Shown in pieces: positions 14,304 to 30,774 of a DNA stretch of 35,294 bases (position 1 is its first letter; the number at the start of each line of letters is the position of its first letter). The stretch is from assembly GCA_001919865.1 (NCBI GenBank), contig MNIR01000046.1:1-35294 (forward strand), given 5' to 3'. The position numbers and the translations under genes were made by a program. The notes under the pieces were generated by a model. That model saw only the letters and a list, made by a program, of their open reading frames with translations. It was not told where the DNA came from and did no database searches. The DNA comes from Gemmatimonadetes bacterium 13_1_20CM_4_69_16 (GTDB taxonomy: Bacteria; Gemmatimonadota; Gemmatimonadetes; Gemmatimonadales; GWC2-71-9).

Positions 14304-14344
14304 CTCTGGCGTTTTCGTCGCACCATTCCCCATTTTGCGCCATG
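14304..14344 (+). promoter_or_regulatory. Upstream element of hpt-rec 1, repeated before hpt-rec 2
   Basis: This region starts CTCTGGCGTTTTCG and ends TTCCCCATTTTG near the ATG. A matching block at 15161-15203 precedes the second hpt-rec gene (CTCTGGCTTTTTCG and TTTCCCCATCTTG). Neither has a Shine-Dalgarno. CATTTT and CATCTT sit five or seven bases before the ATGs and could be -10 boxes of leaderless transcripts. Conservation outside the coding regions suggests a regulatory function or recent duplication. Confidence 0.45.
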
Positions 14345-15112
14345 AGCAGCGACGCCACGACGCCCGAGCTGCCGCCGGGCCTGCTGGAGGAGTACCTCAC
14401 CGGCATGCGCCGCCAGCTCGGCGAGCTCGCCGGGATCGCCGACGACCTCGACGTTGACGGCGGCGACACACGCGCGCTCGAGCAGCTGCGTCGCGAAACC
14501 CACAAGATCCACGGCTCCGCCGGGTCGTTCGGGTTCTGGAGCGCGTCACGCCTCGCCGCGGGCATGGAGGAGACCGCGAAGGACTGGCTCTCCCGCCCGA
14601 CCGACACCGACGTGGACCGCGGCTCGCTCACCCGGTGGTTCGTCGTGCGGCTCGCCGAAATCCTCCGGCTCGACGTGCCGACGACCCAGCGGGCCGACCG
14701 CCCGAGCGGTCCGATCCTCCAGGCGGACCTGCTCAACGTGCCCGAGGTGATCGTGGTGGAGGACGATCCCGCACTCGCCGAGCTGCTCGAGTACGGGCTG
14801 CGCTCGCGGGCGTACCGGTTCGCGTGCTACCGCGACGGCGGCGAGGCGCTCGGCGACCTACTGGCGCTCGAGACCGGAGAGTCGCACCCGCTGCTGCTGC
14901 TCGACGTGGACCTGCCCGTGGTGGACGGCTATGCCATCTTCGAGGCGTTGGAGCGGGAGCGGCCGGGCGCCTACCGTGTGGTCTTCACCACGGCGCGCGG
15001 GGACGAATCCGAGCAGCGGCGAGGCCTCGAGGCGGGCGCGCTCGAGTATCTCGTGAAACCGATCAGCCTGCGAGTCGCACTCGAGAAGATCCACCGCTGG
15101 GTGGGGAGGTGA
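14342..15112 (+). CDS. Hpt-REC phosphorelay protein 1
   Basis: The product is 256 residues. An N-terminal histidine phosphotransfer domain carries the phospho-acceptor His 54 in ETHKIHGSAGSFGF. A linker of about 20 residues leads to a receiver domain with the acidic pair at 140-142 (VEDD), phospho-acceptor Asp 188 in LLLLDVDLP, the Thr switch in VVFTTARGDE and Lys 239 in YLVKPIS. There is no output domain, so it should pass phosphate or bind a partner rather than DNA. It is 89 bases upstream of a paralogue with the same layout, followed by a HEAT protein and a GT2 enzyme. It probably tunes polysaccharide synthesis, which is inferred from the context. Confidence 0.93.
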   Translation: MSSDATTPELPPGLLEEYLTGMRRQLGELAGIADDLDVDGGDTRALEQLRRETHKIHGSAGSFGFWSASRLAAGMEETAKDWLSRPTDTDVDRGSLTRWFVVRLAEILRLDVPTTQRADRPSGPILQADLLNVPEVIVVEDDPALAELLEYGLRSRAYRFACYRDGGEALGDLLALETGESHPLLLLDVDLPVVDGYAIFEALERERPGAYRVVFTTARGDESEQRRGLEAGALEYLVKPISLRVALEKIHRWVGR

Positions 15113-15160
15113 CGCGGCCGCCGCCGGACGGCAGGCTCTCCGGTTGGTGTCGCAGCGGCG

Positions 15161-15203
15161 CTCTGGCTTTTTCGCCCACGGTTTCCCCATCTTGATGGCC
15201 ATG
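15161..15203 (+). promoter_or_regulatory. Second copy of the hpt-rec upstream element
   Basis: This block repeats the sequence before hpt-rec 1 (see 14304-14344): CTCTGGC, a T-rich run, then TTTCCCCATCTTG, ending at the start codon. An ATG at 15195 lies inside it; the paralogue alignment points to ATG 15201 as the start. Confidence 0.45.
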
Positions 15204-16233
15204 ACTGACCGGGGGACGTCTCCCGAGCTGCCGCCGGGGCTGCTCGAGGAGTACCTCGCGGGGATGCGCGCCGAGCTGGCGACGCTCGCGGCGATCGCGG
15301 AGCGTCTCGCCGCGGCATCGGACGATAGCGAGGCGCTCGAGGCGCTGCGCCGGGCGACGCACAAAATCCACGGCTCCGCCGGCTCCTACGGGTTCATGGA
15401 GGCGTCGCGGCTCGCTGCCGGTATGGAGGCCACTGCCAAGGACTGGGTGGCGTGGCCGGGCGACCCGGAGGTGGAGCGTGGCCCCATCACCCGGTGGTTC
15501 GTGGCGCGCCTCGCCGAGATGCTCGGCCTGCCGGCGCCCCGCGCTCCGGCGGCGCCTGTGGCGACAACGCCACCGCTCCCGCCGGTCGGCTCCCCGCCAC
15601 GTCCCCGCGCGACCCCGCCGCCGCAAACCCCCCCCCCCCCCCCCCAGCGCGAGTCCAACTCGGGTGCCGCGGCCACGGACTCCCAGTCCCCCGACCCCCC
15701 CGACCGCCCCCGCTCGGCCCGCACCAGCGCAGCCTGGGTCAACCGACCTGCCGTGGGTAACTCCGCCCTCGCCCGCGCCGACGGCGCGGCCCCCGGCACG
15801 CGCGCCCGCGCCGCCAGTCAAGCCCACGACGCCTCAGCCGACGGCCGAAGCGCTCAGGGTGCCGGAGGTGATCTACGTGGAGGATGACGCGGCGCTCGCC
15901 GAGCTGCTCGAGTATGGGCTGCGGGCGCATGGGTACCGCTTCGCGGCGTACCGGAACGGGCGCGAAGCGCTGCGCGAGCTGCTGGCGCTCGACGTGCAGG
16001 GCACTCATCCCCTGCTGCTGCTGGACGTGGACCTCCCGGCACTCGACGGCTACTCGATCCTCGGCGCCTTGCAGCGGGAGCGTCCCGGCGTCTACCGCGT
16101 CGTCTTCACCACGGTGCACGGCACGGAGGAGGAGCAACTGCGCGGCCTCGAAGCCGGCGCGCTCGATTATCTCGTGAAGCCGATGAGCTTGCGCGTGGCG
16201 CTCGAGAAGATCAAGCGCTGGGTGGGGAGGTGA
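15201..16233 (+). CDS. Hpt-REC phosphorelay protein 2, frame-split at a poly-C tract
   Basis: Start ATG 15201 matches the paralogue (SPELPPGLLEEYL near the N-terminus). The Hpt domain has the phospho-acceptor His 54 in ATHKIHGSAGSYGF. A proline-rich linker follows and contains 18 C in a row (15628-15645). In the sequence as given, the Hpt frame continues only to a TGA at 15885-15887, making a 228-residue protein without a receiver. The receiver (VEDDAALAELLEYGL, LLLLDVDLPALDGY, VVFTTVHG, YLVKPMS) is in the next frame and ends at 16233. Reading one C fewer joins them into 343 residues with a linker rich in Pro throughout. This may be an assembly error, phase variation, or a true break. Confidence 0.85.
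15628..15645 (+). repeat. Poly-C(18) tract between Hpt and REC
   Basis: Eighteen consecutive C lie in the proline-linker codons, preceded by GCAAA and followed by AGCGCG. The coding frames before and after the tract differ by one base. Lengths of 17, 14 or 20 would join the domains. Confidence 0.95.
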
Positions 16234-18804: not shown

Positions 18805-20028
18805 AGCTTTTGCATTTCCCTCTGTTGCAACCCGTTCGGCATCCCGTAACACCCGCAGCACATTCATCCCCGCGACCTTGCGTAGATCCTGTTCGCTCCA
18901 GCCTCTCCTCAGCAGCTCCGCAATGAGATCCGGGAACTTCGACACATCCTCGAGCCCCACGGGCACCTCGGTGATGCCGTCGAAGTCGGAGCCCAGGCCC
19001 ACGTGGTCCGCGCCGACCACCCGCCGCAGGTAGTCGATGTGGTCCGCCACCTGCTGCAACGTGGCCTTCGGAGCGCGCGCCCGCCACGTCCTCAATGAGT
19101 CGCGGATCGCCGCCGTATCGGTCCCCGCCGCCTTGAGCGCACGCACCCGGGGCTCGAGGCTGTCCTCGTATACCCGCACCGCTTCGGAAACGAAGCCGGG
19201 GTTGAAATTCACCATGACGATGCCGCCATTCGGGGCCACCAGCCGCAGAATCGAGTCAGGCACATTGCGCGAATGGTGTGACAGGGCGCGCGCCGACGAG
19301 TGAGAAAACATGACGGGGGCGCGAGCGGCGTGCAGCGCATCGGACATCGTGCCGTCGTTCACGTGCGAGAGGTCCACCAGGATCCCGAGTCGATTCATCT
19401 CGTGCACGACTTCCCGGCCGAACGCCGAGAGCCCGCGCCGCGCGGTATCAGTCGAGGCGGTCGCCCAGGAGAGACTGCGCCAGTGCGTGAGGGTGATATA
19501 ACGGACGCCGAGCGCTGCGAACATCCGGAGCGCGCCGAGCGAGTTCTCGATGGCGTGCCCACCCTCGATGCCGATGAGGCACGAGATCTTCCCGGCGGCG
19601 AAGTTGCGCTCCACGTCCGCCGCGCTGTAGGCCATCGCGAGGTCGCGAGGATACTTCGCGCACAGCCGTTTGATCAAATCGATCTGCTCGAGCGCGTACA
19701 CCGCCGGGTGCGGCCCCGAGTCCATGGTGGTGACGGGCACGTAGGCAGCCCAGAACTGTCCTCCCACCGCGCCGGCGCGGAGCTTGGGGATGTCGGTCAT
19801 CAGTTTCGGCTGCGGGACTGCGAAGTCCACCGAGTCGAGCCCACCCCGTTCCCGGATCGCGTCGGGGATGTCGTTGTGGCCGTCGATCAGCGGGACGGCC
19901 TTCAGGATGCGCAACGCTTGTGCGCGGTAGTCCTGGGCCGACAGACGGAACGATGGAGCGGTGGAGAGGAAGACCGCCAGCACCCACAGCTTCAGCCGTC
20001 GCAACGTTGCGGCGTTCCATTCTTCCAT
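18781..20028 (-). CDS. Secreted M19 family (renal dipeptidase-like) peptidase
   Basis: It is 415 residues with a signal peptide (LKLWVLAVFLSTAPSF, then LSAQ). The zinc-binding motifs of the M19 amidohydrolase fold are present: DGHND at about residues 49-53, the bridging Glu in GIEGGHAI, His in LVDLSHVND and FSHSSARAL, and GLGSDFDGI near the C-terminus. Members cleave dipeptides, including D-amino acid dipeptides from the cell wall, or beta-lactams. It stands alone, facing the GT2 gene and divergent from the molybdenum enzyme genes. The C-terminal tail (KARRTDAQR) is encoded by the right arm of the inverted repeat, so its last residues may be recent additions. Confidence 0.92.
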   Translation of the reverse strand: MEEWNAATLRRLKLWVLAVFLSTAPSFRLSAQDYRAQALRILKAVPLIDGHNDIPDAIRERGGLDSVDFAVPQPKLMTDIPKLRAGAVGGQFWAAYVPVTTMDSGPHPAVYALEQIDLIKRLCAKYPRDLAMAYSAADVERNFAAGKISCLIGIEGGHAIENSLGALRMFAALGVRYITLTHWRSLSWATASTDTARRGLSAFGREVVHEMNRLGILVDLSHVNDGTMSDALHAARAPVMFSHSSARALSHHSRNVPDSILRLVAPNGGIVMVNFNPGFVSEAVRVYEDSLEPRVRALKAAGTDTAAIRDSLRTWRARAPKATLQQVADHIDYLRRVVGADHVGLGSDFDGITEVPVGLEDVSKFPDLIAELLRRGWSEQDLRKVAGMNVLRVLRDAERVATEGNAKARRTDAQR

Positions 20029-20083
20029 CTTTCCCTCGCTTTCCGGCCCGAAAGCTGGCGTCGCTCCTGTCGGTTATCAAGAT

Positions 20084-20089
20084 TAGGTT
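20084..20089 (+). promoter_or_regulatory. TAGGTT -10-like box before hcrC
   Basis: TAGGTT is seven bases before ATG 20097 and there is no clear ribosome binding site. This suggests a leaderless transcript for the three-gene operon. No good -35 was found, so support is modest. Confidence 0.35.
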
Positions 20090-20096
20090 TCCACAA

Positions 20097-20618
20097 ATGC
20101 CCGACGCCAAAGTAAAGATCGGCTTCGATCTGAACGGCGAGTCGGTCGAGGTCGCCTTCGCGCCGCACAAGACGCTGCTTGAAGTGCTGCGCGAGGACCT
20201 CGGGCTCACCGGCACGAAGCACGGCTGTGAGCTGGGCGAGTGCGGTACCTGCGCCGTGCTGGTGGACGGCAAGCCGGTCCTCTCCTGCCTCGTGCTCGGC
20301 CTCGCGTGCGCCGGGCGGCGCGTGAAGACCGTCGAGGGGATGGCGGTGAGCGGGAAGCTCCACCCGCTCCAGGACACGTTCGCCGAGCTGGGCGCGGCGC
20401 AGTGCGGCTACTGCACCCCCGCGTTCCTGCTCGCCGCCGAAGCGCTGCTCGCCGAGCACCCCAAGCCGTCGCGCGACGAGATCAAGCAGGCGCTGTCGGG
20501 CAACCTATGCCGCTGCACGGGATACGTGAAGATCTACGAGGCCGTGGAATTGGCCGCGGCGCGCATGCGGGGGGAGCGGGCCGAGCCGGCGCGGGAGACC
20601 CTGTATGGGCACCCGTAA
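20097..20618 (+). CDS. hcrC: 4-hydroxybenzoyl-CoA reductase-like gamma subunit, two [2Fe-2S] clusters
   Basis: The product is 173 residues. It has the plant-type cluster motif with Cys 44, 49, 52 and 64 (GCELGECGTC and LSC). The second cluster motif has Cys 103, 106, 138 and 140 (CGYCTPAF and LCRCTGY). This is the small subunit of xanthine oxidase family enzymes, which passes electrons between the FAD and molybdenum subunits. The specific assignment to 4-hydroxybenzoyl-CoA reductase comes from the neighbours, since small subunits are alike across the family. Its last 14 bases overlap the start of the large subunit gene. It is divergent from the dipeptidase gene with 68 bases between. Confidence 0.85.
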   Translation: MPDAKVKIGFDLNGESVEVAFAPHKTLLEVLREDLGLTGTKHGCELGECGTCAVLVDGKPVLSCLVLGLACAGRRVKTVEGMAVSGKLHPLQDTFAELGAAQCGYCTPAFLLAAEALLAEHPKPSRDEIKQALSGNLCRCTGYVKIYEAVELAAARMRGERAEPARETLYGHP

Positions 20619-23106
20619 AAAGGCGGCGGTCAAAGAAACGGCGGCGGTCGGGCGGCCCGGTACGCCGTTTCGAGTCGTCGGCAACGCGCTCCGCAAGGTC
20701 GACGCGACGGCCAAGGTCACCGGCGTGACCAAGTTCGCCGACGACCTGTTCCTGCCCCGCATGCTGTACGCCAAGCTGCTCCGGAGCCCCCACCCCCACG
20801 CGCGCATCACCGCCATCGATACGTCGCGTGCCCTGACGTTGCCGGGGGTGAAGGCCGTGCTCACCGGCCACGACCTGCCGATCCCGTTCGGCATCCTGCC
20901 CGTCAGCCAGGACGAGCACGCGCTGGCGCTCGACAAGGTGCGCTTCGTGGGCGATCCCGTCGCCGCCGTCGCCGCCGCGAGCGAGGAGGTCGCGACGGCG
21001 GCGCTCGATCTGATCGCGGTCACGTACGAGCTCGAGCGGCCGATCACCGACGCGGAGGACGCGGTGGCACACCCCGAGCCGCGCATCCACGACTACGGCG
21101 ACCTCGGGAACCTCCACAAGCTCGTCAACTTGGAGTTCGGCGACGTCGAGCAGGGCTTCGCCGAGGCGGACCTGGTGCGCGACGACCTGCTGTTCTTCGA
21201 GGGCAGCACCCACCTGCCGATGGAGCAGCACGCCGCGGTCGGCGACTGGTCCCCCCCGCCCGACGGGAAGCTCACCCTGTGGAGCTCGACCCAGACGCCT
21301 CATTACGTGCACCGCGCCCTCGCCAAGGTGCTCGAGCTGCCGCCTGCGAAGGTCCGCGTGATCGCCACGCCGAACGGTGGCGGCTTCGGTGGCAAGAGCG
21401 ACCCCTTCAGCCACGAGCTCGTGGTGGCGAAACTCGCGATGCTCACCGGCCGGCCGGTGAAGATCACCCTCACCCGCGAGGAAGTGTTTTACTGCCACCG
21501 CGGCCGCCACCCAACGCTGATGTGGGTGAAAACCGGCGTGAAAAAAGACGGGGCGATCACCGCCATGCACTTCAAGTCGCTGTTGGACGGTGGCGGCTAC
21601 GGCTCTTACGGTGTCGCGAGCACGTATTACACGGGGGCGCTACAGACCGTCACGTATCACGTCCCACGGTACAAGTTTCAAGGCGCAAGAGCGTTCACCA
21701 ACAAGCCGCCCTGCGGCCCCAAGCGCGGACACGGCACGCCCCAGCCGCGCTTCGCCCTCGAAGTCCATCTCGACAAGATCGCCGAGCAGCTCGGCATGGA
21801 CCCGGCCGAGCTGCGGCTCAAGCAGCTCGTCCCGCCCAACTCTCTGACGGCGAACTGGCTGCGCATCGGCTCGATGGGACTCGGTGCCTGTATCCGCAAG
21901 GTGGTCCAAGGCTCCGGGTGGAAGGAACAGTTCCGCAACCTTCCCCACGGCAAGGGCATCGGGCTGGCGTGCTCGTCTTACATCACCGGCGCCGGCCTCC
22001 CGGTCTACTGGAACGCGATGCCGCATTCCGGCGTGCAGCTCAAGTGCGACCGCGGCGGCGGCGTCACCGTGTTCTGTGGGTCGACGGAGATCGGCCAGGG
22101 CTCGGACTCGATCCTCGCCGTCCTCGTGGCGGAAGTGCTGGGGCTCGATCCGTTCGACATCGCCGTCGTCACCGGCGACACCGACCTCACCCCCGTGGAC
22201 CTGGGCTCCTACTCGAGTCGCGTCACCCTCATGACCGGGAACGCCTGCATTCAGGCTGCGGAGCGGGCGCGTGAGATGATCCGCCGTCACGCGGCGACCC
22301 AGCTCGCCGTCCCGGCGGAGCGCCTGGCGTTCGCCGAGCGGCGCATATTCGACGTGGCGGATCCGGCGTGTGGGCTCAGCTTCGCCGAGGCGGTGCAGCT
22401 CGCCGAGGCGGCGGAAGGCACCATCGGCACCGTCGGCTCTTATACGCCGCAGCCCTCGGCCGGCAAGTATCGCGGCGCGGGCGTCGGACCGTCACCCGCC
22501 TACTCCTACAGCGCCTGCGTCGCGCTGGTCGACGTGGACCCCGCGACCGGCATCGTGCGCGTGCCGCGCGTCTGGATCGCCCACGACGTGGGTCGCTCGA
22601 TCAATGCGGCAAGCGTCATGGGGCAGATCGAAGGCTCGGTGTACATGGGCTTGGGTGAAGCCCTGATGGAAGAGATGGCCTACCGCGGCAACCGCAACGT
22701 GGTCCACAAGATCCCCAGCCTGCTCGAGTATAAGAGCCCCACGACGCTCGAGATGTGCGACGTCGTCACCTATGTCGTCGAGGATCCCGATCCCAACGGT
22801 CCCTTCGGCGCCAAAGAGTGCGGCCAGGGACCGCTCCTCCCGGTGCCGCCGGCGGTCGCGAACGCGGTGTACGACGCGGTGGGCGTGCGCATCGACGAGG
22901 TGCCGATCACCCCCGAAAAGGTCTTCAAGGCGCTGCGTCGCAAGGAGAAGGGCGAAGCGGCTCGCTACGGGCCGGACCAGTTCCCAGACATACCCTGGCC
23001 CGAGCCCACGCGTGTGGCTCCCCCCTGGGAAGGCGGTGACGGAACCGCGGCAGAAGGGGGTAAAGGCCGGCAGAAGGCGGCAGCGCTGGCCGCGCGGAAG
23101 CGCTGA
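20605..23106 (+). CDS. hcrA: 4-hydroxybenzoyl-CoA reductase-like alpha subunit, molybdopterin-binding
   Basis: The product is 833 residues, long for the HBCR alpha subunit because of a C-terminal Lys/Arg/Ala-rich tail after about residue 790. Conserved blocks include FGILPVSQDEHALALDKVRF, HLPMEQHAA, GGGFGGKSDPFSHEL, FTNKPPCGPKRGHGTPQPR, GSTEIGQGSDS and DLGSYSSRVTLMTGN. The active-site Glu lies in GAKECGQGPLLPVPP. These match my memory of HcrA/HbaC closely and are less like xanthine or CO dehydrogenases. The enzyme reduces 4-hydroxybenzoyl-CoA to benzoyl-CoA in anaerobic aromatic degradation. No CoA ligase or benzoyl-CoA reductase gene is in the window, so the real substrate may differ. Confidence 0.85.
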   Translation: MGTRKKAAVKETAAVGRPGTPFRVVGNALRKVDATAKVTGVTKFADDLFLPRMLYAKLLRSPHPHARITAIDTSRALTLPGVKAVLTGHDLPIPFGILPVSQDEHALALDKVRFVGDPVAAVAAASEEVATAALDLIAVTYELERPITDAEDAVAHPEPRIHDYGDLGNLHKLVNLEFGDVEQGFAEADLVRDDLLFFEGSTHLPMEQHAAVGDWSPPPDGKLTLWSSTQTPHYVHRALAKVLELPPAKVRVIATPNGGGFGGKSDPFSHELVVAKLAMLTGRPVKITLTREEVFYCHRGRHPTLMWVKTGVKKDGAITAMHFKSLLDGGGYGSYGVASTYYTGALQTVTYHVPRYKFQGARAFTNKPPCGPKRGHGTPQPRFALEVHLDKIAEQLGMDPAELRLKQLVPPNSLTANWLRIGSMGLGACIRKVVQGSGWKEQFRNLPHGKGIGLACSSYITGAGLPVYWNAMPHSGVQLKCDRGGGVTVFCGSTEIGQGSDSILAVLVAEVLGLDPFDIAVVTGDTDLTPVDLGSYSSRVTLMTGNACIQAAERAREMIRRHAATQLAVPAERLAFAERRIFDVADPACGLSFAEAVQLAEAAEGTIGTVGSYTPQPSAGKYRGAGVGPSPAYSYSACVALVDVDPATGIVRVPRVWIAHDVGRSINAASVMGQIEGSVYMGLGEALMEEMAYRGNRNVVHKIPSLLEYKSPTTLEMCDVVTYVVEDPDPNGPFGAKECGQGPLLPVPPAVANAVYDAVGVRIDEVPITPEKVFKALRRKEKGEAARYGPDQFPDIPWPEPTRVAPPWEGGDGTAAEGGKGRQKAAALAARKR

Positions 23107-24116
23107 TGCTGCGCCTTCCCTCGTTCACCTATCTGCAGCCCAAGACGCTGCACGAGGCGCTCGCGATGAAGGTCGACGCCGGGCCGGACGGGGTGTTCGT
23201 CTCCGGCGGGACCGACCTCTACCCCAACATGAAGCGGCGGCAACAGGAGCCGAAGATCGTGATCTCGCTGATGGGGATCCCGGAGCTGCAAAAGACGGAA
23301 GGAGGGAACGACGGAAGGACGGAAGGTCGGACAGTGGTCGGGTCATGCATCACTCTTTCCGAGCTTGCCATCGTTCCTTCATTCCGCCGCGGCTATCCAG
23401 TCGTCGTCCACGCCGCCGAGCTCGTCTCCACGCCGCTGCTCCGCAACATGGGCACGCTAGGGGGCAATCTTTGCCTCGACACCCGTTGCAACTACTACGA
23501 CCAGACGTACGAGTGGCGCAAGGCAATCGACTTCTGCATGAAGAAGGACGGCCACATCTGCTGGGTAGCCCCGTCCAGCCCGCGCTGCTGGGCAGTCAGC
23601 TCATCCGACGTGGCCCCGGTCATGGTCGTGCTGGGCGCCGAGTTCCGGCTGGTGGGCCCGAAAGGTGAGCGCGTCGTGCCCGCGGGGCGGCTGTACGCCA
23701 ACGACGGCATCAACTACTTGACCAAGCACGCCGATGAGATCCTGGCCGACATCCGGCTGCCCGCGCCGGACGACTGGGACGCGACCTATCACAAGTTGCG
23801 ACGTCGCGGCTCGTTCGATTTCCCCGTGCTCGGCGTCGCGGCGTGGATCAGGTGGGATGACCGCACGGTGGCGGACGCGCGCATCGTGCTCGGGGGTGTG
23901 GCGAGCCGGCCGCAGGAGATCGTCGAAGCTGGGAGGGTGCTCACCGGGACCGACCTCTCGGAGGAGGCGATCGCCGCGGCCGCGGACGCCGCGTATCGCC
24001 CCGCCAAGCCGCTGGACAACACCGACTTCGATCTGTCGTGGCGGAAACAAATGACGCGGGTGTACGTGAAAGCCGCGCTGCAAGAGCTGCGGCAACGCCG
24101 CACGGCTCCTGCGTGA
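23106..24116 (+). CDS. hcrB: 4-hydroxybenzoyl-CoA reductase-like beta subunit, FAD and extra [4Fe-4S]
   Basis: This 336-residue subunit starts at ATG 23106 (TGATG overlap). It has the FAD-binding FVSGGTDLYPNMK and LLRNMGTLGGNLC motifs. A loop unique to HBCR follows: Cys 128, 144, 152 and 161 (TRC, DFC, HIC, PRC) with spacings 16, 8 and 9. As I recall, the Thauera enzyme binds an additional [4Fe-4S] cluster with the same spacings, which supports electron flow toward the substrate. Residues 63-79 (KTEGGNDGRTEGRTVVG) are a low-complexity insert encoded by repeated ACGGAAGG. The PadR regulator gene ends eight bases away on the other strand. Confidence 0.85.
   Translation: MLRLPSFTYLQPKTLHEALAMKVDAGPDGVFVSGGTDLYPNMKRRQQEPKIVISLMGIPELQKTEGGNDGRTEGRTVVGSCITLSELAIVPSFRRGYPVVVHAAELVSTPLLRNMGTLGGNLCLDTRCNYYDQTYEWRKAIDFCMKKDGHICWVAPSSPRCWAVSSSDVAPVMVVLGAEFRLVGPKGERVVPAGRLYANDGINYLTKHADEILADIRLPAPDDWDATYHKLRRRGSFDFPVLGVAAWIRWDDRTVADARIVLGGVASRPQEIVEAGRVLTGTDLSEEAIAAAADAAYRPAKPLDNTDFDLSWRKQMTRVYVKAALQELRQRRTAPA
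23294..23341. repeat. ACGGAAGG tandem in the hcrB coding sequence
   Basis: Four degenerate copies of GACGGAAGG/GACGGAAGGTCGG lie in frame inside hcrB, between the FAD-motif strand and the GSCITLSELA block. The sequence encodes a polar loop and looks like an in-frame insertion of the repeat family seen elsewhere in the window. Confidence 0.6.
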
Positions 24117-24123
24117 GGGCGCG

Positions 24124-24666
24124 TCACGTCACCAGCGTTTCGATCTCCTCCCGCGCCTTCTCCAGCCGGTCGGCGATCTGCTTGCGCGTGGCCTCGTCGC
24201 GCGACCGCCAGCTCGCCCGGTACACCGCCTTCACCAACCGACCCACGGCGCGGTTCATGTCCGCCATCGCGCCGCCGAGCGCGCGCTCCACGGTGTCGTG
24301 CACGCGCTCGAAGATGTCGTCCACGACGTCCTTGTGCTCTTCCAAGAAGGTGCGGCCCGCGTCGGTGATCTCGTACACCTTCTTGCCCTGCACCTCGCGG
24401 GAGGTCACGAGCCCCTCGTCTTCGAGCCACTGCAGGGTCGGGTAGACGGTGCCGGGCGACGGCGAGTAGCAGCCGCGCAGCTGGTCCTCGAGCTCCTTCA
24501 TGACCTCGTAGCCGTGGCGCGGCTTGTCTTTGAGGAGCTTCAGGATCACGTACTTCATGTCGCCCGATTCGAACCACTGGCGGCGCCGACGGCGCGGTCC
24601 GGCCCAGAAGAAGCCGCGGGGCCCGAACCCGAAGCCGAACGATTCCCATCCGAAGTGCCGAGGCAT
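24124..24666 (-). CDS. PadR family transcriptional regulator
   Basis: It is 180 residues from ATG 24666, with AGAGGA about eight bases upstream. A 30-residue head rich in Phe, Gly and Arg (GWESFGFGFGPRGFF) precedes the winged helix. The PadR core is clear: MKYVILKLLKDKPRHGYEVM, then CYSPSPGTVYPTLQWLEDEG and the wing LVTSREVQGKKVYEITDAG. The C-terminal helices (EEHKDVVDDIFERVHDTVER) form the dimer. PadR proteins repress phenolic-acid or transport genes and often themselves. Its promoter contains a palindrome between the -35 and -10. Its position beside the HBCR-like genes suggests control of aromatic metabolism, but they converge and share no promoter. Confidence 0.93.
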   Translation of the reverse strand: MPRHFGWESFGFGFGPRGFFWAGPRRRRRQWFESGDMKYVILKLLKDKPRHGYEVMKELEDQLRGCYSPSPGTVYPTLQWLEDEGLVTSREVQGKKVYEITDAGRTFLEEHKDVVDDIFERVHDTVERALGGAMADMNRAVGRLVKAVYRASWRSRDEATRKQIADRLEKAREEIETLVT

Positions 24667-24697: not shown

Positions 24698-24725
24698 GAT
24701 ATACTTCCACGATATATCGTGTCAA
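24698..24725 (-). promoter_or_regulatory. Promoter of the PadR gene
   Basis: On the minus strand a perfect TTGACA (24720-24725) and TATATC (24698-24703) are separated by 16 bases. The predicted transcription start lies about 25 bases before ATG 24666, leaving room for the AGAGGA ribosome site. Confidence 0.7.
24708..24721. promoter_or_regulatory. Perfect 14-bp palindrome, probable PadR operator
   Basis: CACGATATATCGTG reads the same on both strands. It sits between the -35 and -10 of the padR promoter and overlaps one base pair of the -35. AT-rich dyads with ATAT centres are typical PadR sites, so autorepression is likely. Binding is inferred. Confidence 0.65.
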
Positions 24726-24789: not shown

Positions 24790-24817
24790 TTGTCGCGCCG
24801 GGTCGCGGCCGTAAATT
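24790..24817 (+). promoter_or_regulatory. Putative promoter of the oxidase-kinase operon
   Basis: TTGTCG (24790-24795) and TAAATT (24812-24817) are 16 bases apart and lie about 50 bases before ATG 24867. The remaining 24667-24866 spacer contains the PadR promoter and operator and the ribosome site GGAAGGA at 24854-24860. Confidence 0.4.
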
Positions 24818-24866
24818 GTAGCGCTCCCTGCCGATGCATGTCACGAGCGCCCTGGAAGGAGACCCG

Positions 24867-25541
24867 ATGTCCGTGCAGGTGACCCCCCACCCGAGATGGG
24901 TGGCCGACCTGGATGCCGCCTTGGACCCGAGCCGCGAGGCGATCCTCGACACCTCGGTGATCGTGCACGCCTCCGAGAACCAACTGGTCGACGGCAGGAT
25001 TCAGAACTTTCTTGTGGCGTTCTACCCGATCATCCGCGACTTCCCGCAATGGCTGCAGCTGCTGCTCGACCGCTCGCCCGAGGATGGCAAGGTCTTTTTC
25101 CGCGACAACATCCGCGTCGAGAAGCGGCACGACGCCATGTGGCGCGCCATGGGCGACGGCTTCAATGTCCCGAGAGAGCGCTTCCAGGTGCCCGAGCCGA
25201 TGATCCCAGAAGTGGAGGAATTCCACGGCTATCTCACCCAGATGTGCCGGGGCGCGCAGTTCGGCGCCGCGGTGTCGGCCACGAACTACGCCGTGGAGGG
25301 CGTGGCGCAGAAGATCTCGGAGAAGGCGCTGCGGGGGCTCGCGAAGAACGAGAAGATCGGCCCGCGCGGGCGGTGGTGGCTGGAAGAGCACGCTAAGTAC
25401 GACGACGAGCACCCGATCCACGCGCTCGAGATCATCAAGGGTTGCGTCAAGCGGGGTGAGGAGCCGCAGGCCATGACGGACGCGGCGCTCAAGAGCCTCA
25501 CTCTGATGAGAGAAGCCATGATCGGCTCTTACGACTCATGA
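24867..25541 (+). CDS. Haem-oxygenase-like diiron oxidase (iron-containing redox enzyme family)
   Basis: This 224-residue protein begins at ATG 24867, which has GGAAGGA seven bases upstream; an ATG 11 codons earlier was rejected for lack of one. It is all helical and resembles TenA/HDO proteins. Candidate iron ligands are Glu 85 and His 88 (VEKRHDAMW), Glu 144 (YAVEGVAQK) and the H-x3-D-x2-H set His 175, Asp 179, His 182 (EEHAKYDDEHPIHALEII). HDO enzymes use a labile diiron site for oxidations such as decarboxylation, N-oxygenation or C-C cleavage; no substrate is evident here. The stop overlaps the kinase start as ATGA, implying one coupled unit. Confidence 0.75.
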   Translation: MSVQVTPHPRWVADLDAALDPSREAILDTSVIVHASENQLVDGRIQNFLVAFYPIIRDFPQWLQLLLDRSPEDGKVFFRDNIRVEKRHDAMWRAMGDGFNVPRERFQVPEPMIPEVEEFHGYLTQMCRGAQFGAAVSATNYAVEGVAQKISEKALRGLAKNEKIGPRGRWWLEEHAKYDDEHPIHALEIIKGCVKRGEEPQAMTDAALKSLTLMREAMIGSYDS

Positions 25542-27457
25542 GCAAGGGTCGGCGCGCGTCGCCGACCCGGGGGCTCAGAGACCCCGCGCCAGCGCCCAAG
25601 GCAGCCCCGAAGCACCCGGCATTCGACCAGATGCGAGTGGCCACGGAAATCGTCGCGGCGCTCGCGGACGCAGTGGTCGTGACCGGGACCGACCGTCGGA
25701 TCCTCACCGCCAATCGAGCGGCGGGCGCGTTGTTCGGCCGCCCCCTCGAGGACCTCCCCGGCACCGCGATCGACGACCTCGTCGTCTCGGCCGAGCGCCA
25801 GCACGTGGCCGAGCGCGAGCACCGCGCGGTCGAGGGCGAGGAGCAGCACTACGAGACGAAGGTGGTGCGGGGGAACGGCGAGGAGCGCAGCGTAGCCGTT
25901 TCGACCACCCCGCTCGTGATCGAGGGGGAGCTGCTCGGCACCGTCGCCACGCTGCGCGACATCACCCAGCAGCAGAGCGAACAGGAGACGCTGGCCCGCT
26001 CGGAGGCCCGCTACCGCAACCTGATCGAATCCGCATCGGACGCCATCGTGACGCTCGATGCCAACGGTCGGTTCACCACCGTCAACCACGCCGCGGAGAT
26101 CGTGTCGGGCTACCGTCGCGGCGAGCTCGTGGGGCTGTGGTTCGCGCCGCTGCTCCCCGATGACGAGCTGCCCAAGGCACTCGCCAACTTCCAGAAAGCG
26201 CTGGCGGGGGAGACCGGGCTGTTCGAAAGTCAGTTCTACCGCAAGGATGGAGAGATTCGCTTCATCTCCATCACGTACTCCACGCCCCAAAAGGACGAGG
26301 AGGTCCTCTGTCTGATCCGCGACGTCACCGACCAGAAGATGCTGCAGGAGCAGCTCATCCAGTCGGAGAAGATGTCGGCGATCGGCCAGCTGGTGTCGGG
26401 GGTGGCGCACGAGCTCAACAACCCGCTCGCCGGGATTTCGGCGTTCGCGCAGCTGCTGCTGTCCGAGAAGCGGTTCCCGCCCGATCAGCGGACCGCGGCC
26501 GAGATGATCTACGCCGAGGCGCGGCGCGCGTCACGCATCGTGCAGAACCTCCTCACGTTCGCGCGCCAGCATAAGCCGGAGCGCACGCCCACCCAGGTCA
26601 ACCAGGTGCTGGACGATACGCTCGAGCTGCGCGGCTACGAGCTGCGGGTGCGCGGCATCGACGTGCAGCGCGACTACGACGAGCAGGTGCCGGAGACGAT
26701 GGCGGACGCGCACCAGCTGCAGCAGGTATTCCTGAACCTGATCACCAACGCCGAGCAGGCGATGGAGCGCTCGGAGCGCGACAAGCAACGGCTCACGGTG
26801 CGCACGCGGCGCGCGGGCGACATGCTCCGTATCGACATCGAAGACACCGGCCCCGGGATCCCTCCCAACCTGCTCGAGCGCATCTTCAATCCCTTCTTCA
26901 CCACCAAACCCACCGGCTCGGGCACGGGCCTCGGGCTCTCGATCTCGCTCGGCATCGTACGCGAGCACGAGGGGCGCATCTGGGCGGAAAACGCGGCCCA
27001 AGGTGCCCGCTTCGTGATCGAGCTGCCGATCATCGCCCCGCGCACCACCGGCGACTACCCCGCCGTGCCGCCCACGATCCCAGTCACCGATCGCCTGCAC
27101 ATCCTGGTCATCGACGACGAGGCCTCGGTGCGGGTCGCGCTGCAGCGCTATCTCTCGAGTCGGGGCCACGAAGTGGAGACGACCGCGAGCGGCAAAGAGG
27201 CCCTGGCGCGGATGCGGGAGGACGCCTTCGACGCGGTGATCGTCGACATGCGTATGCCCGACCTGTCGGGCGAGCAGCTGTTCCAGGAGCTGAAGGCCCG
27301 TGACGAGTCCTACGCCGAGCGCGTCATCTTTACCACGGGCCAGCTGGTGGACGACAGCGTGCGCAGCTTCCTCGCCTCCACCGGCCGGCCCTGCGTGCCC
27401 AAGCCGTTCGAGTTCGGCGCGTTCGACCAGGTCCTGCCGGCGCGGCGCACTTCGTAG
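25538..27457 (+). CDS. PAS-PAS hybrid histidine kinase with C-terminal receiver
   Basis: The product has 639 residues and no transmembrane helix, so it is cytoplasmic. Two PAS domains lie at about residues 35-145 and 155-270 (AALADAVVVTGTDRRILTAN and NLIESASDAIVTLDANGRFT). HisKA carries phospho-acceptor His 291 in VAHELNNPLAGI. HATPase boxes are NLITNAEQA, DTGPGIP, FNPFFTTK and GTGLGLSI. The receiver has IDDE, Asp 570 in VDMRMPDLSG, FTTG and the Lys in CVPKPFE. Its ATG is inside the oxidase gene end (ATGA), so both are made together; the kinase may sense a product or redox state linked to the oxidase. No partner regulator is adjacent. Confidence 0.95.
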   Translation: MSKGRRASPTRGLRDPAPAPKAAPKHPAFDQMRVATEIVAALADAVVVTGTDRRILTANRAAGALFGRPLEDLPGTAIDDLVVSAERQHVAEREHRAVEGEEQHYETKVVRGNGEERSVAVSTTPLVIEGELLGTVATLRDITQQQSEQETLARSEARYRNLIESASDAIVTLDANGRFTTVNHAAEIVSGYRRGELVGLWFAPLLPDDELPKALANFQKALAGETGLFESQFYRKDGEIRFISITYSTPQKDEEVLCLIRDVTDQKMLQEQLIQSEKMSAIGQLVSGVAHELNNPLAGISAFAQLLLSEKRFPPDQRTAAEMIYAEARRASRIVQNLLTFARQHKPERTPTQVNQVLDDTLELRGYELRVRGIDVQRDYDEQVPETMADAHQLQQVFLNLITNAEQAMERSERDKQRLTVRTRRAGDMLRIDIEDTGPGIPPNLLERIFNPFFTTKPTGSGTGLGLSISLGIVREHEGRIWAENAAQGARFVIELPIIAPRTTGDYPAVPPTIPVTDRLHILVIDDEASVRVALQRYLSSRGHEVETTASGKEALARMREDAFDAVIVDMRMPDLSGEQLFQELKARDESYAERVIFTTGQLVDDSVRSFLASTGRPCVPKPFEFGAFDQVLPARRTS

Positions 27458-29507: not shown

Positions 29508-29563
29508 CTCCTGAAAGACTAAGATGCGTCAAGTACGCAATAGGTCGCGGGAAAGCGTCACGA

Positions 29564-29582
29564 GACGTCGTCCGGCGACGTC
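29564..29582. promoter_or_regulatory. Inverted repeat between the sigma and iron exporter genes
   Basis: GACGTCG and CGACGTC are perfect 7-bp arms around TCCGG. The repeat lies in the middle of the 145-base divergent spacer. It could be an operator for either gene. I saw no match to an ECF-type promoter that would decide. Confidence 0.4.
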
Positions 29583-29619
29583 GTCATCGCAGCGCGTCTT
29601 CGCGACGGCGTCTAACCGA

Positions 29620-29647
29620 TTGCCATCCTGCAAGTTGCGACTATGTT
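29620..29647 (+). promoter_or_regulatory. Putative promoter of the iron exporter gene
   Basis: TTGCCA (29620-29625) and TATGTT (29642-29647) have a 16-base spacer. The expected start of transcription is at or next to ATG 29653, which has no Shine-Dalgarno. This suggests a leaderless message. Confidence 0.5.
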
Positions 29648-29652
29648 CCAGC

Positions 29653-30774
29653 ATGCCTGATCTCGATAACGCCACCCTGCATAACTGGCTGCACCACTGG
29701 CAGGACGAATTCGACGCGGCGTACCTGTATCTGGTGCTCGCGGGTCAGGAGCCCGACCAGAAGAAGAAGGAGATCTACGTCAAGCTGGCGGGCGTGGAGG
29801 AACGCCATACGCAGCTGTGGGAAAAGCTGCTGGCCGAGCACGGCCACCCGGTCGCGACGGGCCGAGCGCGGCCCTCCCTCAACGCGCGCGTGCGGGCGTG
29901 GTTCGGGCGCCAGTTCGGGCCCGGTTACCTGCTGCCGTTGCTGCTGCGGGAGGAGGGGCAGGAGGTGAAGGGCTACATGGACCTCCACGAGCAGTCCCGG
30001 CTCGACGACGCGCGGGACATCTCGCTCAAGCTCGCCAAGGAATCCGCGGCGCATGCCGAAACGCTGGCGCACCTCGCCGGACGGGCGAGCGAGCCGTGGC
30101 ACCGGACGGAATCCGGCGGATACCTGCGCAACGTCGTGTACGGCTTCAACGACGGCTTGACGGCGAACTTTGGCCTAGTGGCGGGGGTGTTGGGCGCCGC
30201 CGCAGCCCCGCACTTCGTCCTGGTCTCCGGGATCGCGGGAATGATCGCGGACGCGCTCTCGATGGGAGCCTCGGGCTACCTCGCCGCCAAGAGCGAGCTG
30301 GAGGTGTACGCGCACGAGATCGCGATGGAGCAGGAAGAGATCCGGCTCATGCCCGAGGTGGAGCAGGACGAGCTGGCGCTCGTTTACCAGGCGAAGGGGA
30401 TCGAGGCGGGCATCGCGCGCCAGATGGCAGCCGAAGTGATGCGCGACCCGAAGCGCGCCCTGGGTGAGCAGGTGCGCGAGGAGCTGAAGATCGGCGAAGC
30501 GCACGCCACGCCGTTCAAGGAGGGGTGGGTCACCGGGGTCTCCACGGCGGTCGGCGCGCTCATTCCGGTCGCTCCGTTCGTCGTGCTCAGCGGGCCGACC
30601 GCCGCATGGACCGCGTTCGCGGTCGCCATGCTGTCCCACTTCGCGGTCGGCGGCGCCCGCAGCTTTTTCACCGGCCGCGGCGTGATCCGCAGCGGAATCG
30701 ACATGTTCGTGGTCGGGTTGGGCGTGGCGGCGGTCGGCTACTTCGTCGGGAATCTCGTGGCGGGAACCCTGTAG
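29653..30774 (+). CDS. Ferritin-like domain fused to VIT iron transporter (MbfA type)
   Basis: It has 373 residues from ATG 29653; the open frame before it (from 29524) is basic and unconvincing. The first 150 residues form a rubrerythrin/erythrin-type four-helix domain with EFDAAYLYLVLAG, EERHTQLW, LREEGQEVKGYMDLHEQ and ESAAHAETLAHL, which can bind two iron ions. The C-terminal half is a VIT1/CCC1 transporter (VVYGFNDGLTANFGLVAGVL, then IADALSMGASGYLAAKSE and the Glu-rich MEQEEIRLMPEVEQDE loop) with about five helices. MbfA proteins export iron and protect against iron and peroxide. It is next to the ECF sigma gene; shared stress control is inferred. Confidence 0.9.
   Translation: MPDLDNATLHNWLHHWQDEFDAAYLYLVLAGQEPDQKKKEIYVKLAGVEERHTQLWEKLLAEHGHPVATGRARPSLNARVRAWFGRQFGPGYLLPLLLREEGQEVKGYMDLHEQSRLDDARDISLKLAKESAAHAETLAHLAGRASEPWHRTESGGYLRNVVYGFNDGLTANFGLVAGVLGAAAAPHFVLVSGIAGMIADALSMGASGYLAAKSELEVYAHEIAMEQEEIRLMPEVEQDELALVYQAKGIEAGIARQMAAEVMRDPKRALGEQVREELKIGEAHATPFKEGWVTGVSTAVGALIPVAPFVVLSGPTAAWTAFAVAMLSHFAVGGARSFFTGRGVIRSGIDMFVVGLGVAAVGYFVGNLVAGTL

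Follow-up and report, generated by a model that had tools for sequence, protein, structure and literature searches.

A predicted diiron oxidase gene paired with a PAS hybrid histidine kinase gene in Gemmatimonadota, a variant of the undA-rbdA association

UndA is a medium-chain fatty-acid decarboxylase that makes 1-alkenes (1-undecene in Pseudomonas), and RbdA is a PAS-GGDEF-EAL regulator of biofilm dispersal. In pairs of the RpfF-RpfR type, the gene for a fatty-acid-acting enzyme lies beside that for a PAS sensor of the fatty acid; RpfF is a crotonase-fold enzyme and not a heme-oxygenase-fold diiron oxidase (HDO), and the output of these pairs is c-di-GMP. Among Pseudomonas genomes undA is reported to be always associated with rbdA (Rui et al., 2014, as cited in the available text of PMC10614000), so the preliminary description of the present locus, which knew of no characterised pair of its kind, has to be corrected: such an association was already in print. 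The same text reports that deletion of undA in P. fluorescens impairs biofilm maturation, which is restored by 1-undecene or by wild-type volatiles; the Pseudomonas evidence presented there is of 1-undecene acting on biofilm, not of RbdA sensing 1-undecene, and no functional link of UndA to RbdA is described there. In the available portions of two other papers, undA is listed as PA14_53120 (PMC8246062), and RbdA is described as a membrane protein, the physiological ligand of whose periplasmic pocket is not known (PMC11372557). HDOs are treated as metabolic and natural-product enzymes in the available part of PMC13108848, where the word "kinase" is not mentioned. A literature search for an HDO-kinase pair found none among the matches listed (titles and abstract openings), and nothing was found in the literature on 1-undecene with UndA and c-di-GMP; undA together with rbdA gave a single paper.

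The pair of genes described here is a variant of the known undA-rbdA association and not a new kind of pair. It is located in a contig of Gemmatimonadetes bacterium 13_1_20CM_4_69_16, and the whole stretch of 35,294 nt that was analysed is referred to as the window. The pair consists of the following features:

24867..25541, + strand: HDO gene (224 aa), encoding an UndA-like predicted diiron oxidase of the heme-oxygenase fold (PF14518)
25538..27457, + strand: hybrid histidine kinase gene (639 aa), PAS-PAS-HisKA-HATPase_c-REC (Pfam)
25538..25541, + strand: ATGA, in which the kinase start codon overlaps the HDO stop codon (sequence)
24856..24861, + strand: AAGGAG, ribosome-binding site of the HDO gene (sequence; AGGAG conserved)
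25658..26347, + strand: two PAS domains of the kinase, about residues 41-270 (Pfam and NCBIfam; AF2 pLDDT 86.1)
26384..27031, + strand: HisKA (residues 283-344) and HATPase_c (residues 390-498) of the kinase (Pfam; H-box present)
27101..27418, + strand: receiver domain of the kinase, residues 522-627 (Pfam)

The pair has the coordinates originally proposed, and the 4-nt ATGA overlap at 25538-25541 was confirmed in the sequence. The longest ORF for HDO begins at 24834. Since AAGGAG lies 5 nt before the ATG at 24867, and since AGGAG at this site is retained in 22 of 22 aligned upstream regions (the window plus 21 loci), we take 24867 and not 24834 as the start. The neighbors of the pair in the window are padR and a gene for a PDZ protein, with no response-regulator gene adjoining. 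The best explanation of the arrangement is that HDO and a soluble PAS hybrid kinase form one translationally coupled unit.

HDO matched PF14518 above the Pfam cut-off (E 2.9e-15), and no NCBIfam model matched it at E 1 or better. Its closest solved relatives by sequence were PSPTO1738 and UndA (E about 1e-13; 8e-14 for UndA), followed by CADD (5e-5). An AF2 model of HDO built from 22 family sequences had a pLDDT of 90.8 and, when compared with solved structures using VIA-align, matched 3oql with Z 25.9, UndA with Z 25.3 (2.5 Å over 222 residues) and CADD with Z 24.4; rows no more than 1 Z apart count as tied, which leaves UndA and CADD nearly tied. Taken with the Pfam match, the pLDDT and the UndA and CADD scores place HDO in the heme-oxygenase-like helical superfamily. 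The predicted ligands are E85-x2-H88, E144 and H175-x3-D179-x2-H182. All six, together with W171, were invariant in an alignment of 22 of the 34 available family sequences (window included) and also in a 12-sequence alignment that included UndA of P. aeruginosa, in which W171 aligned with UndA W190. The UndA ligands are presumably E101, H104, E159, H194, D198 and H201; E101, H104 and E159, counted in the alignment, match these numbers after a shift of two. By alignment, HDO therefore has three His and three carboxylate ligands (3H/3C), as most HDOs do according to the available part of PMC13108848, where W190 of UndA is also named. That the ligands lie together is indicated indirectly, by the whole-chain match of the model to UndA and by the sequence alignment, and the early assignment of a stand-alone HDO fold with a full ligand set is supported by both.

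The proximity of CADD to UndA among the fold matches (Z 24.4 vs. 25.3) would suit a CADD-like, self-modifying protein, that is, a side-chain donor or radical protein in place of a turnover enzyme. We consider this very improbable, as the HDO sequence is nearer to UndA (8e-14) than to CADD (5e-5) and has the E-x2-H spacing of the UndA type. With UndA (PDB 4wwj, 6p5q), HDO has in common the fold, the six ligand positions and the Trp at the W190 position. The two are only 22-24% identical, so the substrate may differ, and R57-D58 is a feature of the window HDO family, the UndA lineage having E, S, N or A followed by Q or H at these positions. UndA is among the best solved relatives of HDO, and in the tree the HDOs of Proteobacteria are set apart as a distant group. 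We consider HDO a probable functional diiron oxidase within the UndA branch, and infer both its iron binding and its substrate class.

Plasmid-encoded relatives were 24-28% identical to the window HDO. At four of the seven plasmid places examined, the gene for an UndA-type HDO lies directly downstream of a PAS-GGDEF-EAL gene. On the 847 kb plasmid of P. aeruginosa, the HDO is UndA (2.9e-136 to 4wwj) and the gene 74 nt upstream is that of RbdA PA0861 (5xgb, E 0); the gap is 19 nt in B. ambifaria and 13 nt in Caballeronia M1242 (L096), where the PAS match is below Pfam cut-offs, and for Caballeronia SBC1 an ORF call in an unannotated record gives a 4-nt overlap, like that of the window pair. These four places belong to one HDO lineage in the tree and so may represent one event. 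A codirectional PAS neighbor was absent in three of the seven places. In C. zhejiangensis no PAS-GGDEF-EAL gene is annotated beside HDO; upstream of a second HDO gene of SBC1 lie two kinase-like genes and a gene for a regulator, with a gap of more than 0.6 kb; and in Acinetobacter the neighbor of HDO is a GGDEF gene in divergent orientation that gave no PAS match.

The Gemmatimonadota pair thus shares with undA-rbdA an UndA-type HDO gene adjoining a PAS signaling gene on the same strand. It also resembles pairs of the RpfF-RpfR type, in which a fatty-acid signal enzyme is encoded beside a PAS sensor. It differs from undA-rbdA in order, HDO preceding the sensor and not following it, and in its HDO, which is about 24% identical to UndA. 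The partner likewise differs, being a PAS-PAS-HisKA-HATPase_c-REC protein and not a PAS-GGDEF-EAL c-di-GMP enzyme, and, in contrast to the membrane protein RbdA (PMC11372557, available text), it gives no indication of being anchored in a membrane.

The PAS, HisKA, HATPase_c and Response_reg domains of the kinase all matched above Pfam cut-offs, bearing out the PAS-PAS-HisKA-REC architecture first read from the sequence. The HisKA domain has its H-box and the receiver its Asp. As in other PAS hybrid histidine kinases, HisKA, HATPase_c and REC are all present. Unlike these, the window kinase is encoded by a gene that overlaps an HDO gene and, among 151 related genomes, was found only where that HDO is. 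Calling it soluble, as was done at the outset, is reasonable because no strongly hydrophobic 19-residue stretch was found; its hydrophobicity peak was 1.4 per 19-residue stretch vs. 1.97 for VIT, a membrane protein of the window. By sequence and by fold, the PAS domains matched only generic PAS structures, and we therefore rejected any identification of their ligand or cofactor from these matches. RbdA-like PAS domains matched them weakly and generically (best E 1e-5). The catalytic part of the kinase was 57-61% identical to that of five of six long multi-PAS kinases of a neighboring family. Fused HDO-kinase proteins were sought, as had been suggested, but none of the six long kinases nearest to it in the order gave an HDO match. 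At one locus (L014, 2075..3982, + strand), the kinase has a Tyr in place of the H-box His (GVAYELNNP) and may be inactive, or the change may be a sequencing error.

The reading that we favor, with a probability of about 45%, is that HDO makes or removes a hydrophobic ligand that is read by the PAS domains of the kinase, perhaps with relay to an Hpt-REC protein. It is put forward from the anatomy of the pair and by analogy, because in a second phylum, where the output is different, members of the same HDO branch are likewise encoded next to PAS proteins. HDO would bind two irons, activate O2 and oxidize a small molecule, probably a hydrophobic one resembling a fatty acid. The substrate or product of this reaction would be read by the PAS domains, kinase activity would thereby report the metabolite together with O2, and the phosphoryl group would be transferred to the receiver of the kinase itself and from there, perhaps, to an Hpt-REC protein encoded about 10 kb away.

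A scan of genome contigs yielded 33 distinct HDO loci, 32 of them labelled Gemmatimonadetes or Gemmatimonadales and one (L026) labelled Euryarchaeota. The kinase gene lies directly downstream of HDO in 28 of the 33, and these clade-A loci have a 4-nt overlap in 27 of 28 cases (ATGA in 18, GTGA in 9; the exception is L019). Across 298 genomes of the phylum, HDO matches occurred in 22, at 26 places and in one family only, with the kinase present at all 22 clade-A (orthologous) places and at none of the four clade-B (paralogous) places; this sample overlaps the 33 loci, so the two sets of counts should not be summed. The adjacency proposed in the preliminary description is thus conserved, and loss of the pair elsewhere was not met within the clade-A family. 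Thirteen comparisons with the window gave dN/dS values of 0.07-0.16 for HDO, and 13 gave 0.11-0.28 for the kinase; for PadR, 10 comparisons gave 0.09-0.27. Both HDO and kinase genes are under purifying selection, and these values, with the overlap kept at 27 of 28 clade-A loci, point to more than a chance arrangement. We take the pair to be real and its conservation to be confined to a single family.

Upstream of the pair, the following features were identified:

24124..24666, - strand: divergent padR gene, a conserved neighbor in most loci (Pfam; comparison of loci)
24708..24721, no strand: perfect palindrome CACGATATATCGTG, intergenic, on the side toward padR (its core is kept in the 22 upstream regions that were aligned)
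24790..24817, + strand: promoter-like element before HDO, TTGTCG-16 nt-TAAATT (conserved: TTG-GTAnATT; conservation)

The palindrome CACGATATATCGTG is a possible PadR operator and may be autoregulatory. A promoter belonging to the HDO-kinase unit itself is suggested by conservation, the consensus promoter scan having given sites on the minus strand only and not detected the element at 24790..24817. Because enzymes and regulators are often joined in operons, and because padR, read divergently from the pair in most loci, may be its regulator, the pair could reflect mere co-expression, HDO being a metabolic enzyme and the kinase sensing something else and controlling the pathway or stress response that HDO serves. 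We regard this as doubtful. Among 151 relatives, with eight candidates per genome scored, every one of the 24 that have a clade-A HDO but none of the 127 others contained a kinase ortholog (at least 71% identity over nearly the full length), which thus never occurred without HDO; in the same scoring, six genomes of another family had kinases with 41-49% identity. Two loci (L027 and L055) retain the pair although padR was not found there and the other probed neighbors are absent as well. Mere co-expression would also make the Proteobacterial PAS parallel a coincidence.

Clade-B paralogs lack such a kinase (5 of 33 loci, 4 of 26 places) and come from four genomes that also carry the pair, plus L026. 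The contig of L026, labelled Euryarchaeota archaeon, has the gene order of a Gemmatimonadetes locus (L033) around HDO and is probably misbinned. In the tree, from which L031 was omitted as a fragment, clade B is placed at the base of clade A, with a very distant outgroup and hence weak rooting. At two of the four clade-B places a stand-alone receiver gene adjoins HDO, and at the other two there is none; the two receivers are about 55% identical, and one is encoded 125 nt downstream of HDO in the same direction, the other divergently. The clade-B paralogs with a receiver neighbor in place of the kinase are those of L030 (5828..6298, + strand) and L032 (3258..3671, - strand).

These receiver neighbors fit a different role for HDO, that of the sensor itself, in which O2, iron or a bound ligand would alter the diiron site and HDO would switch the kinase by binding to it, with no diffusible product involved. 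The overlapping genes and the strict co-occurrence would suit a stoichiometric complex of this sort, and the dN/dS of HDO, below that of the kinase in most comparisons, also counts for this role. Such a role nevertheless seems unlikely, given that the kinase already has a sensory part in its PAS domains and that the full ligand set and W171 suit an O2-activating enzyme. As a control, we considered all 44 PF14518 places in the 298 genomes, 18 of which differ from the window type. The surroundings of those 18 yielded a single kinase match, on the opposite strand; some neighbors may have escaped notice, since several of the loci span only 3.1-6.6 kb and two have no full HDO frame. A kinase link as a general trait of PF14518 proteins in the phylum is therefore not supported, and the link is a trait of the window HDO lineage.

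A broader proposal, which we hold only tentatively, is that UndA-type HDOs form a recurrent unit of oxidase plus PAS reader in at least two phyla and that the main role of the branch, UndA included, is signaling. In such a unit, a diiron enzyme would turn over a hydrophobic metabolite in an O2-dependent manner and the adjacent PAS protein would read that metabolite; gene orders would differ, as would outputs (c-di-GMP turnover in one case and a His-Asp phosphorelay in the other). UndA-type chemistry may thus serve signaling. With the present pair, the little-noticed undA-rbdA association of Pseudomonas extends to a further phylum and a further class of output, so that what was an odd synteny may be part of a pattern. 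Should the pattern hold, sensing by RbdA-like PAS proteins and the retention of UndA-type decarboxylases would become testable, and HDOs would enter signal transduction.

A candidate for the output of the kinase is encoded elsewhere in the window:

14342..15112, + strand: Hpt-REC gene, putative phosphorelay partner, not adjacent to the pair

Relatives of the Hpt-REC gene were found in 20 of 24 genomes with a clade-A HDO vs. 7 of 127 others, one of the seven being in the same family and the other six, with weaker matches, in another family. In 12 of the 20 (window genome included) the gene lies 9-14 kb from HDO on the same contig, and in 8 it is on other contigs. Kinase output may perhaps pass through this protein, whose gene lies some 10 kb from the pair. 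We treat the pairing as no more than a candidate, since shared ancestry and synteny explain part of the co-occurrence and the genome has 26 HisKA matches. Four Hpt matches above the cut-off were present in the genome, which is 85% complete: two here and two in frames of 593 and 973 aa. After the Hpt-REC gene, a second Hpt (15144..15887) and REC (15478..16233) occur on the + strand in different frames, and in a relative (G114) both Hpt and REC matches lie in open frames of 365 aa. The stretch 14342..16233 (+ strand) is followed by a HEAT-repeat gene and a glycosyltransferase family 2 gene.

A role in anti-phage defense was rejected, as PADLOC gave no HDO match; its three weak matches (E 0.0004-0.006) all fell on the receiver domain of the kinase. 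Phage origin was likewise rejected, there being no PHROG match. Two records labelled Acinetobacter phage contain an HDO relative, and one of them (L098) has prmB, aroC and lipA around the HDO gene and so resembles a bacterial chromosome and not a phage. Molybdenum hydroxylase genes (2Fe-2S, Mo and FAD subunits) occupy 19920..24116 (+ strand) and are upstream of padR in many relatives; the nearest NCBIfam models are those of 4-hydroxybenzoyl-CoA reductase, below cut-off. At 29524..30774 (+ strand), a VIT-family protein is encoded whose N-terminal part weakly matches rubrerythrin (E 0.067), and by these matches the product is perhaps a ferritin-like/VIT fusion.
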